Source of the DNA: an uncultured Chlorobiaceae bacterium
GTDB taxonomy: Bacteria; Bacteroidota; Chlorobiia; Chlorobiales; Chlorobiaceae
Length of the DNA stretch: 50,114 nucleotides
Reading direction: 5' to 3'
Assembly (NCBI GenBank): GCA_903869365.1
Contig: CAIPYV010000110.1
Coordinates: 1-50,114 of the forward strand
Positions within the stretch are counted from its first letter, which is position 1; each line of letters opens with the position of its first letter. The position numbers and the translations under genes were made by a program. Positions 27,303 through 37,377 of this stretch are shown here, in pieces. Below the pieces are notes generated by a model. That model ran no database searches and was not told the DNA's origin. It was given only the letters and a program-made list of their open reading frames with translations.

Positions 27303-29420
27303 TTAGAAGGTCTGTGTTAAACCAACATTCAACGAACGACCCTGTCCGGCAACTGATTCGAATGAGAAGAGTCGCTTGTTTGCCAGGTTGAGGTCATAGT
27401 TAATGCCACCGAGCGGCAGATAATAGAACCGGTCGAACAGGTTAGTGACACCGAAGTCTAATCGGAGGTTTTTCCATTGGTAATCCGTGTGCAGATTGAG
27501 CAGGGCGAAGCCTGGAGTTGTTGGCTCTTTACGAAGAGGATCAACCTCTGTTTTCTTGCTGACAAGTTGCAGTTCAAGCGCGTTGGTCCATCCGGCGACT
27601 CTCTGTTCCAGCGTCAGGTAACCATTCAGCGGCATGATATGGTAGAGAGAGTTCCCTGTGTCTGAGTTTCGGCCGTGCACATAGCCAAGACTTCCACGAA
27701 GCTGGCCGTGTCCGAAGCTGCTGCTCTCCCATACACCAACTTTTCCCGACACATCCATCCCATAAATTCTTGCGTTATGATTGGCAAACTGCAGGGTGTT
27801 GCCGGTTGATTTCAACGTTAAAATATTTACATCAATGTAATCATTGACATACGTGTAATAGGGAGTAACCTTCAACTCCCAGCTCTTGCGTTCACTGTCG
27901 TGCCACTCAGCCGAGAGACTCAAGGTATTAGCAACTTCAGGCTTGAGGTTGAGATTGCCTACATAAGCATTACCGTCACCAAACCAGTTGATCATGCCGC
28001 TGCACATAAAGCTTTTCGACCATGCATAGCGTTCGTAGAGGTTCGGGGAGCGGGTCTTGCGGGCATAGCCGATCTCATAGGACGCCTTTGATGAAGGCTC
28101 AAATCTGGCCAGAGCGGTAATGTCCAGATTGTTGTCGTTGCGGGCATGATCCAGGACATTGAAGGCATTTGCATCAGCAGCATACATCATGCCGGTGTTA
28201 TACCCCTGGACGCTGCCGGTATCCATCTGTACCAGTTCATCGCGTATACCGAGAACAGTAGTCACCTCTGTGCTTACCTTTGCTTCCCATTCGGCAAACA
28301 GACCGTACCTGTCACGCCGGCCATTATTGATATTGACGAAGGTGTTCGGCGACATCATCATACTGCCGGCAACCGGTGGCCATGAGTCGTTCAGGGTGAA
28401 GCGGTGGAATTCGTTGCCGAGGCGAAGGATGTTCTTTTCAGCAAAAGGAATATCTGTTTTCAACGAATAGCCAAGGTCGATACCGCGAGTCTCCATGGGC
28501 ATATCCTTCATTCCCGTCTGAACAGCAGGAATGGCCAGCTTGTCTTTGCCGGAATCCATCTTGTGATAGGTCTTCTCCCAGTATGCCTTGGCATCGAGTT
28601 TACCCCAGCCGAAGCTGTTCTTGTAGGCGATATTGATAAAAGAAGCGTTATTGTCGACCATGTCCATCCACTGGTTGACAAATCCCTGGCCAGAGATCGA
28701 TTGATGGCCTGCCTTGAAGGACAACAAGTTATCGTCACCCTTGAAGGCTAAAGTAGCTCCGAGATTACGCGACTCATAATAGGTTGATGTTACAGTATTA
28801 TCATGACCATCCTTGTAGTCATCGGCATGATCAATTGAACCGGTAACACCAAAGCTGACACTGCTGTTTGCCACTGCGGCTGAGAATGCTGCACCGGTGC
28901 TCTGATTGACGCTTCGGTAAGAGGTTGACACACTACCCGATTCTTTGATGCCATCACCAGGTTGAGCAAAAATCGGCTGATCCGATTCAACGTGAATCGT
29001 GCCCCCGACGTTGTCACCACCGTAACTGACTGGAGAAACAGCAGTTTTAACACCGATGCGGCTCACGTTTGAAGGAGCGATGTAGGACAACGGCGGATTC
29101 ATGTGGTTGGCACAGGCCGAAGTCAGACACATCCCGTCAACGTATATGGTTAAACGGTCGTCTCCCAGTCCGTGTATGATTGGCAGGCTCGAAACCCCCC
29201 CGCCCGTGGCAAGGGTGACTCCCGGTTCATCTTTGAGAAGCGAGGCAGTATCACTGGTTTTCAGTCGTTTGGATGCCAGTGGAGCCTCAGGTTTTTCTGA
29301 ACTTCCAGTAATAACCGTTTCCTGGCTTATCGCTTCTATACAAAATGCCGGCAAAGGCAGTGCCGCAGTTATCAGCAGAAACGTTAGCAAGGGAATAAAG
29401 TGGTTTGTTGAATTTCTCAT
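27303..29420 (-). CDS. TonB-dependent outer-membrane receptor (probable metal/copper-type)
   Basis: A 705-aa protein. It has a signal peptide (FIPLLTFLLITAALPLPAFC), then a plug domain with a shortened TonB-box region, IIHGLGDDRLTIYVDGMCLT and YGGDNVGGTIHVE, and a 22-strand barrel ending in aromatic F (GRSLNVGLTQTF). Met/His-rich stretches such as CANHMNPPLSYI, GSMMMSPNTF and NTGMMYAADA resemble OprC/NosA-like copper receptors, which is a substrate inference only. It lies just downstream of a small Cys/His-rich exported protein. I start at ATG 29420; a TTG at 29462 is weaker. Confidence 0.88.
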   Translation of the reverse strand: MRNSTNHFIPLLTFLLITAALPLPAFCIEAISQETVITGSSEKPEAPLASKRLKTSDTASLLKDEPGVTLATGGGVSSLPIIHGLGDDRLTIYVDGMCLTSACANHMNPPLSYIAPSNVSRIGVKTAVSPVSYGGDNVGGTIHVESDQPIFAQPGDGIKESGSVSTSYRSVNQSTGAAFSAAVANSSVSFGVTGSIDHADDYKDGHDNTVTSTYYESRNLGATLAFKGDDNLLSFKAGHQSISGQGFVNQWMDMVDNNASFINIAYKNSFGWGKLDAKAYWEKTYHKMDSGKDKLAIPAVQTGMKDMPMETRGIDLGYSLKTDIPFAEKNILRLGNEFHRFTLNDSWPPVAGSMMMSPNTFVNINNGRRDRYGLFAEWEAKVSTEVTTVLGIRDELVQMDTGSVQGYNTGMMYAADANAFNVLDHARNDNNLDITALARFEPSSKASYEIGYARKTRSPNLYERYAWSKSFMCSGMINWFGDGNAYVGNLNLKPEVANTLSLSAEWHDSERKSWELKVTPYYTYVNDYIDVNILTLKSTGNTLQFANHNARIYGMDVSGKVGVWESSSFGHGQLRGSLGYVHGRNSDTGNSLYHIMPLNGYLTLEQRVAGWTNALELQLVSKKTEVDPLRKEPTTPGFALLNLHTDYQWKNLRLDFGVTNLFDRFYYLPLGGINYDLNLANKRLFSFESVAGQGRSLNVGLTQTF

Positions 29421-29462
29421 AGTATTAAAAAATGATAAGTTAACGCTGTCTGTTGTTTCCAA

Positions 29463-32903: not shown

Positions 32904-33515
32904 TTATGGGCGTTGTTCGATTTTTTGTTTCAGGACAGGTGCCGGAGTTGGAGTATCATGGACAATTTCTTTCGGAGAAAAGTGAATTTGTGTGATCTCC
33001 TTTTTACGCCGATCTTGACCTGTCGGCATTCCTGGTGAAACGATATTGTTCACAAGCTGGCCTAGTCCGGAACTGATATTGTTAAACAAGTTCTGAACTT
33101 GACCTGAGCTTACGGTTGAGTTCAGATTTTCGAGCAGGTTTTTCCATAATTTACCGAGCTCTTGAAAAGAGCTTTGAACCTGTTCTGAATTAATAGTGGC
33201 AGTCACACCATCAATCAACTGCCCGGTAGTAGAGGTGACACCTTCGATCAACTGTCCGGAAACAGAGTTGACATTATTAATGATTCCCTTGACTGGCTCC
33301 GAATTGATAGTCGAAGTAACCCCTTCAATCAGTTGTCCGGTAGCGGAACTTACCGAGCTTATGATTCCCTGGACTGATTCAATGGTTGAGTCAATCAAAA
33401 TGCCCACGTTGCCGATCAAATTAGCCATGTCCCCATTGCCGACATTGTTTTCCGGTGTTATCGGTGCCGACGGTTTTGGTGCGCCTGCCGGTTTGTTGAG
33501 CTCTGCTGCTGCCAT
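32904..33515 (-). CDS. Repetitive alanine/valine/serine-rich protein, possible chlorosome envelope protein
   Basis: A 203-aa protein with no signal peptide. Residues ~30-165 consist of imperfect repeats such as SATGQLIEGVTSTINSEPVK, SVSGQLIEGVTSTTGQLIDG and SSGLGQLVNNIVSP. These give amphipathic, hydrophobic helices broken by Gly/Ser. The N-terminus is Ala/Pro-rich (NKPAGAPKPSAP) and the C-terminus is polar and Pro-rich. This composition recalls CsmB/CsmF/CsmH-type proteins of the chlorosome surface, but I do not see a definite signature. The gene stands alone between the NtrC-like regulator and the transferase operon. An alternative is a generic apolipoprotein-like or phasin-like surface protein. 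Confidence 0.55.
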   Translation of the reverse strand: MAAAELNKPAGAPKPSAPITPENNVGNGDMANLIGNVGILIDSTIESVQGIISSVSSATGQLIEGVTSTINSEPVKGIINNVNSVSGQLIEGVTSTTGQLIDGVTATINSEQVQSSFQELGKLWKNLLENLNSTVSSGQVQNLFNNISSGLGQLVNNIVSPGMPTGQDRRKKEITQIHFSPKEIVHDTPTPAPVLKQKIEQRP

Positions 33516-33658: not shown

Positions 33659-34357
33659 TCACTCTCCGATGATATTGTCTCTGTAGTAACGGATAATTGT
33701 CTCCTGGTCACATCCAAGTGCATACATCAAATGAATGGTTCCAAAGATTAACTGGAGTCTGATTATACCGTTTTGGTGATACCTTCTGGCCGATGTGGTG
33801 ACCTGGTTTTCAAGAATATGGAATCGCTCGTGCTGTTCAATGCGAGTGATGATATTGATATCTTCCATGACCATCATGGTTTCGTCGAAACCTCCGATGT
33901 CATGAAACAGAGATTTATCAATAAAAAGGGACTGGTCCCCTCCGCGGCATACCATCAACGGAAATTGTGTGAACCATCCGTAAAGGCTCATGACAGGGTT
34001 GCTGTCGTTAAAGTCCATCCTGAAACATCCGGCTTTTTTCCCATCTGCAGAGGCTGAACGGATATTGTCGATAAAGGTTTCTGGAGGCAGAGTGTCAGCA
34101 TGCAGAAAATAGAGAATATCCCCTTGAGCAAGACGCGCACCAGTATTCATTTGTATGGCACGTCCTTTTTCGCTGCGGCATACGGTTACCTGGAAGTCCG
34201 AAAGGATCATAGGTGTCTCATCGTTGCTTGCATCACTAATGATTATTTCAACTTTCTCCGATTGTTCAGTTATCGACAGAAGTGTCTTGAGCGACTGAGC
34301 AATGATTGCCTCTTCGTTATAAGTCGGGATGATAATACTTATGCTTCGAGGGTCCAT
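33659..34357 (-). CDS. Family-2 glycosyltransferase, rSAM-associated (TIGR04283-like)
   Basis: A 232-aa GT-A fold transferase. It opens ISIIIPTYNEEAIIAQSL, has the DXD-equivalent in ILYFLHADTLPP, and the acceptor-side GGFDETMMVMEDINI. It matches transferase 2 of the radical-SAM/selenodomain-associated pair. It is the last gene of the operon, its start overlapping the upstream transferase by 19 bp. The substrate is unknown. Confidence 0.85.
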   Translation of the reverse strand: MDPRSISIIIPTYNEEAIIAQSLKTLLSITEQSEKVEIIISDASNDETPMILSDFQVTVCRSEKGRAIQMNTGARLAQGDILYFLHADTLPPETFIDNIRSASADGKKAGCFRMDFNDSNPVMSLYGWFTQFPLMVCRGGDQSLFIDKSLFHDIGGFDETMMVMEDINIITRIEQHERFHILENQVTTSARRYHQNGIIRLQLIFGTIHLMYALGCDQETIIRYYRDNIIGE

Positions 34358-34947
34358 AATCGGCTTTTTTTCAGGTCATCAAACGTATCGATATCCGACA
34401 GTTCAGGAAGCAGTTGGTGTGTTATATCGAGTCTCAGAAGTATTTCGATGGTTTCGCCGAGTACCTTGTTTGTGCTCCACTCACGATCGAGGAATATGTC
34501 TGGTATAAGCCTGTTTAATCCGATAAGGTAAAATCCTCCATCACTTGCAGGCCCCACGACTGCATCGGAATCTTCAAGAGCTGCGAATGCGGACTCAAGG
34601 ATAGTTGCACTTAACTCATAACAATCTGTTCCAATAAGCACGATATGACGAAATCCTGTATTAAAGCCTCTCCTCATTGCATGCAGCATTCGTTCACCAA
34701 GATTGTCACCAACCTGGAGTTGAGCAGTATAATTATCCGTGAGAAAAATATCAGTGGCAGGGAGGAAGTGAGAATAAAACACTGTTCGGCTCACCTCAAC
34801 CTTTTCAGCGATACAAGCAGTATGACGTCGAAGTGTTTCATAGACTGCAAGAGCTTTTTCATCACCTATAGAGCTGGCGAGACGTGTTTTCACCAATCCC
34901 GATTCAGGGTTTTTTGTAAAGATGATAAGCAGTGACTCGTTTGTCAT
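34339..34947 (-). CDS. DUF2064-type glycosyl/nucleotidyl transferase, rSAM-associated (TIGR04282-like)
   Basis: A 202-aa nucleotide-sugar-transferase-fold protein: FTKNPESGLVKTRLASSIGD (nucleotide-binding loop), VLIGTDCYELSATILESAF (metal-binding Asp) and DAVVGPASDGGFYLIGLN. I start at 34947 because its ATG overlaps the upstream arsS stop as ATGA, indicating coupling. A longer frame to 34989 would run inside arsS. It co-occurs with the TIGR04283 partner and an ArsS-type radical SAM protein in many genomes. Confidence 0.87.
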   Translation of the reverse strand: MTNESLLIIFTKNPESGLVKTRLASSIGDEKALAVYETLRRHTACIAEKVEVSRTVFYSHFLPATDIFLTDNYTAQLQVGDNLGERMLHAMRRGFNTGFRHIVLIGTDCYELSATILESAFAALEDSDAVVGPASDGGFYLIGLNRLIPDIFLDREWSTNKVLGETIEILLRLDITHQLLPELSDIDTFDDLKKSRLWTLEA

Positions 34948-35999
34948 ACCAGAGCTCCCTGGCAGCTGGAACCACATCCAGCCGTACATCCGTAACAGTG
35001 CTGACCTGTGGTTATCAGACGATTGCGGAGCTTGTCTTCATTGAACAAGCTAATGTGCTGCGGCACACCTTTTTCTAAAGGAAGATTGAGCATCTGGTTG
35101 AAATCACAGTCGTAAAGAGTACCGTCCCAGCCGACCGACACTGTTGTTCGACACATGAGGTTTTTCACTGCAAGGGGATTGTAACTCTTTGCAAGAAGCG
35201 TCATATACTGGCAATAATGGCCGCTCTCAAGCAGATCGTTGAGAAAGCGGCTGATCGGCATATTCGTAATTGTATAAAGCTGGTTGAAAACAATACCGTG
35301 CTCTTCGAAAAGTTTCGTTCGGTATTCACTTTCAAGCTTCAACTGTTCTTGTGGCAGCGAAGGGCCACAGGGATTATAGACAAGGTTTAGTCTGAGGTCA
35401 TGTTCCTGTTGACCGTATCCAAGGTTGTTGAGGAGTTTCAATGCCTCAATTGATCGGTCGAAAACCCCTTTTCCTCGTATAATATCGACAGTTGTCTTTG
35501 AGTAACAGGGAAGTGATGCAATAAGGGTTACCCCTTGCTGTTTGAGAAACTCCGGAATATCGCGATATTTTAGGCCACCAGTGAAAAGTGTCAGGTTTGA
35601 ACGGACAAGGATGGTTGCGCCAGGCACTCTGCTCCTTATATTTTTAATGAACCATCGGAATTCCGGATTCATTTCCGGCGCGCCCCCGGTAATATCAATG
35701 GTATTTATGGAACTTTGCTCAAGAGCATCAAGACAATGCAGCATTGTTTTGCGTGTCATTATCTCACTGCGGTCGGGTCCGGCATCAACATGGCAGTGAC
35801 GGCAGAGCAGGTTGCATGCATAGCCTGTGTTGATCTGAAGAACATCGATGCTCAAGGCAGAGAGCGGAGCACTTCCGGATTCGTCAACTTTTTTGCTGAA
35901 TGGAAGGATACCGCAGTCTGTCTCCTCAAGAAGCTTTACCTGAGCCTCAGCAGCGGTAACCATTGTGTTTTGCCGGTGTAGTGATTGTTTTTTTTGCAT
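34944..35999 (-). CDS. arsS: Radical SAM protein, arsenosugar biosynthesis ArsS-like (TIGR04167)
   Basis: A 351-aa radical SAM enzyme. The 4Fe-4S motif CNLLCRHC lies near residue 58, and the SAM-contact GGAPEM and the family's DITGGAPEMNPEF segment follow. The C-terminal DUF3641 region carries extra cysteines (MCRTTVSVGWDGTLYDCDFN and CYGCTAGCGSSCQGA) that probably hold additional clusters. In some organisms ArsS makes arsenosugars with ArsM; no arsM is visible here. It overlaps the downstream transferase by 4 bp. A second Met at 35963 is a possible start. Confidence 0.85.
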   Translation of the reverse strand: MQKKQSLHRQNTMVTAAEAQVKLLEETDCGILPFSKKVDESGSAPLSALSIDVLQINTGYACNLLCRHCHVDAGPDRSEIMTRKTMLHCLDALEQSSINTIDITGGAPEMNPEFRWFIKNIRSRVPGATILVRSNLTLFTGGLKYRDIPEFLKQQGVTLIASLPCYSKTTVDIIRGKGVFDRSIEALKLLNNLGYGQQEHDLRLNLVYNPCGPSLPQEQLKLESEYRTKLFEEHGIVFNQLYTITNMPISRFLNDLLESGHYCQYMTLLAKSYNPLAVKNLMCRTTVSVGWDGTLYDCDFNQMLNLPLEKGVPQHISLFNEDKLRNRLITTGQHCYGCTAGCGSSCQGALV

Positions 36000-36015
36000 A
36001 ACAGGAGTTGGCTGT

Positions 36016-37377
36016 TCAACCGCCTAATCTGCTGATGAGCTTTTCAGCAACCAGCTTTCCACTAAGCGCAGCCCCTTCCATAGAGGCAAGATAGTGTTGA
36101 TAGGTATAATCGCCGGCAAGGAAGAAGTTTTTGATAGGGCTGATCTGGTCAGGGCGGAATTGATCGACACCTGGAACTGCTTTATAAACCGACTCAGGAA
36201 TTTTGACAATAGTTGCTTTCAACAGCTTTGCATCTCGTGACTTTGGGAATCGTTCATGAATGTCTTTCATGACCAGACCGGTGATGACATCGTTAGGCAT
36301 ATTCATGAGCTGGTGTGCTGGAGCAAGCACAAGGCTCATGACGCTGCCACCGTTTGCCGTTCCCATATTTTTTTGGAAATCTTCAGGGCAGGTAATTGAA
36401 ACATCGGCAAAGGTTGCAAAAATAGTGCCTTGCGAAAACATGAGATTATCAGTGTCGGTTATTTTTCTGTCGAACCAGAGCTGACAGTTTGCAACCGGAC
36501 TGCCTTCAAATTCGTGCAGGTTACGGAAATATTTATAGGTAAGCCACGGAACAGGTATTATTTTTTTAATGTTATGTACTGGCAGAGCAGAAATATAGGC
36601 GTCAGCGTCAATGTTGTGACCGTCATGGAGTACTGCATGTTGAATGCTCTCATCACTGTTCAGTTCAAATCTGCTCAGCTTGGCATCGACAAAAATACGT
36701 CCACCCTTGCCCTGTATATACTGACGCATTGGTTCAATCATCGAATCGCCAGGATTTTTACGAAAAAAGCCAAACTTTGTTGACGTATAATCAGTACCGA
36801 AATATTTGAAAATAGTAATCATCGGTCGGGCGCTGATAACGTTCGGTTCGATGAAGTTCATGGCAAGTGCAATGGCTCGCCACAGCTTCTGCAATGAATG
36901 TTCAGAAGCGCCCTTCAGTCGGTGCCATTCCGAATAGGTCATATGATCCTGGGAGCGAAAATACTCCTCATTACCTATAATGGCAGGGAAGAGACCCTTG
37001 ATAAGAGAAATTTTATCCCACATGGTGAGAAAATCGGTCTGTAGACCACCCACCATCTCCGCCCAGGGGCTCGGTAGTTTTGCTTTTTTAAAATAAGACT
37101 GTCTTCCGTCAGACTCGGCATAGATGAGTGCATGCTCTTTCCAGTGATAATTATCTTCAGCACCGACTCGTTTGAGGTATTTCTGAAGCTGTTCGTAACC
37201 TCCGAAAACAATATGAAGTCCAGACTCTATGGAATCGCCGTCACTGTCTTTCCAGACGGAAACTTTTCCGCCAAGTATTTTGCGTTTCTCATAAATCTCA
37301 ACAGAGTGTCCTCGATCCACAAGTTCTATCGCTGCGCTGAGTCCCGCAACTCCTGCGCCGAAAATTGCTATTTTCAC
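36016..37377 (-). CDS. crtQ: Plant-type carotene desaturase (CrtQ-like)
   Basis: A 453-aa FAD-dependent desaturase. FAD-binding Rossmann motif is IAIFGAGVAGLSAAIELVDR; GGKVSVWKDSDGDSIESGLH follows. A C-terminal dinucleotide/FAD contact is FLAGDYTYQHYLASMEGA. Blocks such as LWRAIALAMNFIEPNVISAR resemble zeta-carotene desaturase more than phytoene desaturase, so CrtQ is preferred, but CrtP is possible. Green sulfur bacteria use this CrtP/CrtQ/CrtH route to lycopene. It is the first gene of the operon with arsS and the transferases, 16 bp before arsS. Confidence 0.8.
   Translation of the reverse strand: MKIAIFGAGVAGLSAAIELVDRGHSVEIYEKRKILGGKVSVWKDSDGDSIESGLHIVFGGYEQLQKYLKRVGAEDNYHWKEHALIYAESDGRQSYFKKAKLPSPWAEMVGGLQTDFLTMWDKISLIKGLFPAIIGNEEYFRSQDHMTYSEWHRLKGASEHSLQKLWRAIALAMNFIEPNVISARPMITIFKYFGTDYTSTKFGFFRKNPGDSMIEPMRQYIQGKGGRIFVDAKLSRFELNSDESIQHAVLHDGHNIDADAYISALPVHNIKKIIPVPWLTYKYFRNLHEFEGSPVANCQLWFDRKITDTDNLMFSQGTIFATFADVSITCPEDFQKNMGTANGGSVMSLVLAPAHQLMNMPNDVITGLVMKDIHERFPKSRDAKLLKATIVKIPESVYKAVPGVDQFRPDQISPIKNFFLAGDYTYQHYLASMEGAALSGKLVAEKLISRLGG

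Follow-up and report, generated by a model that had tools for sequence, protein, structure and literature searches.

We analysed a 50,114-nt stretch of DNA from an uncultured Chlorobiaceae bacterium (the window, whose coordinates are used throughout), in which four minus-strand genes lie closely packed at positions 33659–37377. Read along that strand, they are a CrtP/CrtQ-type carotene desaturase gene, here called crtQ (36016–37377; 453 amino acids, GTG start; placed by its TIGR02731 and TIGR02732 scores), arsS, which encodes a radical S-adenosylmethionine (rSAM) enzyme with a C-terminal DUF3641 domain (34944–35999; 351 amino acids; TIGR04167 and DUF3641), a gene for a CofC-like nucleotidyl- or glycosyltransferase of the TIGR04282/DUF2064 family (34339–34947; 202 amino acids; family score and similarity to 3cgx; alternative upstream start at 34989), and a gene for a glycosyltransferase family 2 (GT2) enzyme of the TIGR04283 family (33659–34357; 232 amino acids; family score and Glycos_transf_2). 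A 16-bp gap (36000–36015) separates crtQ from arsS, the arsS stop and the TIGR04282 start overlap in a 4-bp ATGA (34944–34947), and the two transferase genes share 19 bp (34339–34357). This is the operon that a first-pass annotation of the DNA had described, and its gene order recurs in relatives. We consider the chance about even that arsS and the two transferase genes form a working, translationally coupled module that makes arsenoribosides from arsenicals whose methylation takes place outside the cell, and that the transferases also act in some role independent of ArsS. The arrangement itself, a crtQ slot without ArsM in which the transferases outlive ArsS, is a variant that calls the label ‘arsenosugar biosynthesis’ into question.

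The arsS gene is intact, and purifying selection acts on it. Its product, the sole ArsS in the genome, matches TIGR04167 at 437 bits (cut-off 300) over model positions 3–303 of 303, and DUF3641 at 182 bits. Its radical SAM CxxxCxxC cysteines (C62/C66/C69) and C-terminal C283, C298, C335, C338 and C346 are 100% conserved inside and outside Chlorobiaceae, and it retains 114 of the 121 columns whose conservation outside Chlorobiaceae reaches 95% or more. The ratio of nonsynonymous to synonymous substitution rates (dN/dS) for arsS was 0.10–0.21 in pairs of relatives without ArsM, compared with 0.14–0.22 in pairs with it. The predicted structure is confident (predicted local distance difference test score 91.4, predicted template modelling score 0.90), except for the low-scoring residues 344–351; a Foldseek search with it returned generic rSAM enzymes (SkfB, BlsE, DesII and EpeE; SPASM/twitch-type and others) at template modelling scores of ~0.5, with no pointer to a substrate. 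The first-pass view that such proteins lack an established product is out of date: in the biosynthesis of oxo-arsenosugars, rSAM enzymes adenosylate arsenic and so form a C–As bond (PMC12159101, citing Cheng 2021), and ArsM and ArsS of Synechocystis carry out the first arsenosugar steps (PMC8552651, citing Xue 2019). The chemistry of ArsS is thus already known, and the family is therefore not new.

We next asked where the substrate of this enzyme would come from. The absence of arsM remarked on at the locus by the first-pass annotation holds across the genome (136 contigs, 99.99% complete), in which profile searches left both ArsM models below cut-off, the best NF008823 match reaching 80.9 bits against 263 and NF038099 likewise falling short. 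The C67 methyltransferase was considered as a hidden ArsM and rejected: it scored 80.9 of 263 bits on NF008823 and 41 of 400 on NF038099, the model for ArsM of the arsenosugar type, has one cysteine by our reading, and has counterparts with similar matches in most relatives. The sensitivity of the searches was adequate, since they returned over-cut-off ArsM in 22 relatives. Across a survey of 86 Chlorobiaceae genomes, the source of all family counts below, ArsS exceeded its cut-off in 52, ArsM in 22 (a further copy is broken) and TIGR04283 in 78 (a further copy is partial), while NF038099-type ArsM did so in none of the 86. ArsS and ArsM occurred together in 17 genomes, ArsS alone in 35, ArsM alone in 6 and neither in 28. 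The raw association between the two gave p = 0.14 over all genomes and p = 0.011 over those at least 90% complete; a tree-based test had only 5–6 independent pairs to draw on. Among ArsS-bearing genomes, ArsM of either type was found in 16/43 Chlorobiaceae (at least 90% complete) versus 49/68 genomes elsewhere in the phylum (Fisher p = 4e-4, kinship ignored). ArsS without ArsM is not unique to Chlorobiaceae, as 19 of these 68 outside genomes share the condition, including 5/5 of the sister family f3.

Some of the ArsM matches are interrupted: those at G024:C23:16063–16890 (locus L134) and on G042:C31 contain one in-frame TGA each (selenocysteine, pseudogene or sequencing error), and six genomes of the phylum that carry ArsS (G197, G260, G178, G206, G220 and G256) have ArsM matches with one in-frame TAA each. 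In the sister families f2 and f3 (loci L271–L276), arsS mostly has TIGR04169 adjoining and TIGR04282 and TIGR04283 are not nearby; f3 is without ArsM.

The rarity of ArsM raises the alternative that ArsS of Chlorobiaceae adenosylates a target other than methylated arsenic, be it inorganic arsenite, a non-arsenic nucleophile or an alkene, and that the transferases build a pentoside other than an arsenosugar. Consistent with this, ArsM is missing from 35 of the 52 ArsS-bearing Chlorobiaceae and from all of f3, it is rarer among ArsS-bearing Chlorobiaceae than elsewhere in the comparison above, and two ArsS cysteines are specific to the family (Cys165, 100% vs 7% elsewhere; Cys29, 94% vs 0%). However, no column separated the ArsS of ArsM-bearing from that of ArsM-less Chlorobiaceae beyond what shuffles gave, the conserved columns of the ArsS family are otherwise kept, and methylated arsenic can be supplied externally. 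We regard this alternative as doubtful, if still worth carrying forward.

We then examined how the cassette is arranged in relatives. The neighbourhoods of crtQ and TIGR04283 show that the slot between crtQ and csmH, which encodes chlorosome envelope protein H and flanks the slot downstream (32904–33515, minus strand; TIGR03058 and its order in relatives), takes three states: crtQ-arsS-TIGR04282-TIGR04283-csmH, crtQ-TIGR04282-TIGR04283-csmH, and crtQ-csmH. arsS directly follows crtQ in 46/52 ArsS-bearing Chlorobiaceae, the others being contig breaks or relocations, and TIGR04283 lies within 1.2 kb of crtQ in 23 arsS-less genomes. Because the crtQ-arsS adjacency and the overlaps recur in this way, the arrangement is not due to chance. 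In most relatives the arsS/TIGR04282 junction is the same −4 bp and the TIGR04282/TIGR04283 overlap is 13–22 bp, while the crtQ-arsS gap ranges from about 3 to 372 bp. Four genomes (G027, G031, G039 and G072; loci L203, L208, L218 and L255) carry TIGR04282 and TIGR04283 in one uninterrupted frame, which may, judging from the reading frame, encode one protein. These junction lengths and shared frames indicate that coupling is strongest among arsS, TIGR04282 and TIGR04283, and weakest to crtQ.

Several relatives preserve traces of arsS after its loss. Directly before the TIGR04282 start, arsS-less genomes hold remnants of the arsS 3′ end: 23 residues with 74% identity to ArsS 329–351 in G073, 38 residues at 55–58% in G082 and 13 residues in G060. 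Only the last two arsS codons and the ATGA are left in G078, where the crtQ-TIGR04282 gap is 9 bp, as it likewise is in G077 and G083. From these scars we conclude that arsS was deleted and the transferases kept. On the crtQ tree arsS must change state 9 times, with well-supported branches forcing 6 or more of these changes, and the ArsS proteins of Chlorobiaceae form one clade in their own tree, a pattern consistent with one acquisition followed by repeated loss. Presence of the transferases does not depend on ArsS: 28/34 arsS-less Chlorobiaceae keep TIGR04283, and TIGR04282 adjoins it except in G085, where TIGR04283 stands alone at a contig end with TIGR04282 beyond that end. Transferase dN/dS was 0.11–0.25 in arsS-less pairs versus 0.10–0.33 in pairs with arsS, and the similarity of these values with and without arsS, as of the arsS values with and without ArsM, argues that neither arsS nor the transferases are decaying.

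The losses could suggest that an arsenosugar pathway has been decaying since ArsM was lost and that the cassette is what remains of it; in keeping with such a history, arsS, and in places the whole cassette, has been deleted several times within Chlorobiaceae. Against it, dN/dS of arsS, TIGR04282 and TIGR04283 falls at 0.10–0.33 and the frames are open in the pairs tested, and we consider the relic explanation highly improbable. A second alternative gives the two transferases a general role in glycosylating the envelope or lipids of green sulfur bacteria and makes arsS an unrelated passenger in the operon. Persistence of the pair in the 28 arsS-less genomes, also away from crtQ, the deletion scars beside an intact pair, and the similar constraint on the pair with and without arsS all agree with this idea; that the pair clusters with arsS, a purine nucleoside phosphorylase (PNP) gene and arsM outside Chlorobiaceae, that the 4-bp arsS/TIGR04282 overlap is present in most genomes, and that the three genes relocated as one unit in G039 all speak against it, leaving it distinctly unlikely.

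Since relatives that deleted ArsS kept both transferases, the ‘arsenosugar’ label of TIGR04282 and TIGR04283 is probably too narrow, and a pair that survives without ArsS must also serve another donor. The first-pass annotation had called arsenosugar synthesis doubtful, and its interpretation was partly right in a respect hidden from it: the transferases outlive arsS and so are not purely arsenosugar enzymes. Both transferases of the window are clear family members. The TIGR04282 protein scores 200 bits (cut-off 134), its nearest solved structure being 3cgx, a putative nucleotide-diphospho-sugar transferase (E 8e-27), and the TIGR04283 protein scores 238 bits (cut-off 182), matches Glycos_transf_2 and has the GT2 motifs HAD and MED, which are invariant in seven relatives.

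Two arrangements of the transferase pair have features of their own. In G020, which we take to be Chlorobaculum tepidum, the crtQ-TIGR04282 gap is ~170 bp and carries an inverted GGGCAGACCTGCGTGTCTGCCC repeat where arsS would be (locus L196), as it does in G002; we found no literature on C. tepidum CT1415–CT1417. In G032, a divergent rSAM gene and a methyltransferase gene stand beside a relocated transferase pair (locus L210, G032:C113:2318–6976), with no family reached at cut-off.

We also considered whether the desaturase takes part in the pathway. It falls below the cut-offs of both carotenoid models (TIGR02731, 417 bits against 569; TIGR02732, 346 against 622), so the models take the assignment no further than ‘CrtP/CrtQ-type’; the orthologue in C. 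tepidum gives the same scoring pattern, and the gene is found, normally as a single copy, in 84/86 Chlorobiaceae genomes. HpnH, the adenosyl-hopene transferase that acts on diploptene, is a precedent for rSAM adenosylation, and by analogy CrtQ could give a polyene that ArsS adenosylates and the transferases glycosylate, yielding a modified or glycosylated carotenoid. Short gaps, a common strand and the crtQ-arsS adjacency in 46 genomes are what recommend this scheme. Yet crtQ holds the same place in genomes without arsS, TIGR04282 and TIGR04283; the pair lies away from crtQ in G032, G063, G065, G084 and G085, and the trio in G039; and of all the junctions the crtQ-arsS gap varies most. Nor are these genes tied to crtQ or to organisms that make carotenoids: besides these relocations, other bacteria encode ArsS homologues of ~50% identity in arsenic-type clusters that have no crtQ, and outside Chlorobiaceae the neighbours of arsS are arsM, PNP, TIGR04169 and rhodanese genes, not carotenoid genes. 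The link to crtQ is looser than any other in the cassette and relocations have severed it, which makes a carotenoid product unlikely, and we give next to no credence to the full scheme; the glycosylated pigment raised as a possibility by the first reading of this DNA is not supported. The desaturase gene would instead be a neighbour that perhaps shares a promoter, not a partner in biosynthesis.

To place the cassette in a pathway, we combined the known chemistry of ArsS with the gene neighbourhoods outside Chlorobiaceae, from which the order of steps was derived. There, genes for TIGR04169, rhodanese, TIGR04282, PNP, arsM, DUF547 and TIGR04283 surround arsS, with PNP within two genes after TIGR04282 in 29/52 cases and an arsM-like gene near arsS in 38/72 loci. 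Insertion of the cassette between crtQ and csmH would be an ancient event in Chlorobiaceae. Because the cell cannot methylate arsenic itself, a trivalent methylated arsenical would enter from the sulfidic surroundings or from neighbours, and ArsS would add a 5′-deoxyadenosyl radical to it, giving an arsenonucleoside. A purine nucleoside phosphorylase would then free 5-arsino-ribose-1-phosphate, the CofC-like TIGR04282 protein would activate this as a nucleotide sugar, and the GT2 enzyme TIGR04283 would transfer the activated sugar to an acceptor such as glycerol or a lipid. Both transferases would also take other 5-substituted or plain pentoses, which would account for their role without ArsS.

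In favour of this arsenoriboside pathway, the genome does meet arsenic, as another of its contigs carries arsR-arsC-acr3-arsD-arsA. Several points weigh on the other side. That green sulfur bacteria contain an arsenosugar is itself a prediction here, the supply of methylated arsenic is assumed, and what TIGR04282 and TIGR04283 do is predicted from their folds and gene neighbourhoods. Of the full cluster, the genes for PNP, TIGR04169 and rhodanese do not adjoin arsS in the window; no genome-wide search for PNP was made. The peroxidase-like partner TIGR04169 was absent from all 86 Chlorobiaceae genomes in a search that was also silent in control genomes, although blastp sees it beside arsS in order-mates. 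Finally, the ArsM-less condition of 19/68 outside genomes could mean that ArsS has another substrate. We therefore also entertain, as a tentative possibility, that green-sulfur ArsS and the pair make a non-arsenosugar riboside, or an arsenoriboside straight from arsenite, that the pair is a general pentose-activating and -transferring module only sometimes fed by ArsS, and that the database name is wrong in most of its Chlorobiaceae members.

Elsewhere in the window, the flank downstream of the cassette holds csmH, an NtrC-type regulator, dut and bshB1; together with the named relatives, these genes assign the window to the Chlorobiaceae, the green sulfur bacteria. Pfam LPD38 is a further match of the csmH product (39 bits vs 27), perhaps owing to its internal repeats, and the best model for a TonB-dependent receptor at 27303–29462 is a copper receptor, whose 175 bits fall short of the cut-off of 472. 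Promoter and terminator scans gave no guidance, with 20 promoter-like sites compared with 10.4 expected.

ArsM is regarded as the starting enzyme of arsenosugar biosynthesis, and here an intact ArsS under selection occurs in phototrophs that are mostly without ArsM. If the arsenoriboside pathway is correct, green sulfur bacteria convert the methylated arsenic of others to ribosides, a new step of the arsenic cycle in sulfidic waters; alternatively, ArsS and the transferases have another substrate. Cultured Chlorobiaceae exist for each gene state, with C. tepidum, if rightly identified, representing the pair without ArsS.

Compared with known systems, the genome has a complete copy of the canonical ars resistance operon, on a contig other than that of arsS. 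HpnH is, like the window ArsS, an rSAM enzyme, but the profile similarity is weak (30 bits against a cut-off of 225) and ArsS is not a member of that family. The Bacteroidota-type cluster TIGR04169-arsS-rhodanese-TIGR04282-PNP-NF038099 arsM-DUF547-TIGR04283 has arsS and both transferases in common with the window, whereas the window cassette is without PNP, arsM, TIGR04169, rhodanese and DUF547 genes, TIGR04169 and NF038099 being absent from all Chlorobiaceae surveyed. C. tepidum, as we identify it, shares the order of crtQ, TIGR04282, TIGR04283 and csmH with the window but is without arsS. A close likeness is to the DDMAA synthase ArsS (TIGR04167) of Synechocystis and other bacteria, which the window protein resembles in its full-length match above cut-off, its cysteines and its DUF3641 domain, and from which it differs in belonging to a genome without ArsM, in having crtQ as its neighbour and in carrying the lineage-specific Cys29 and Cys165.

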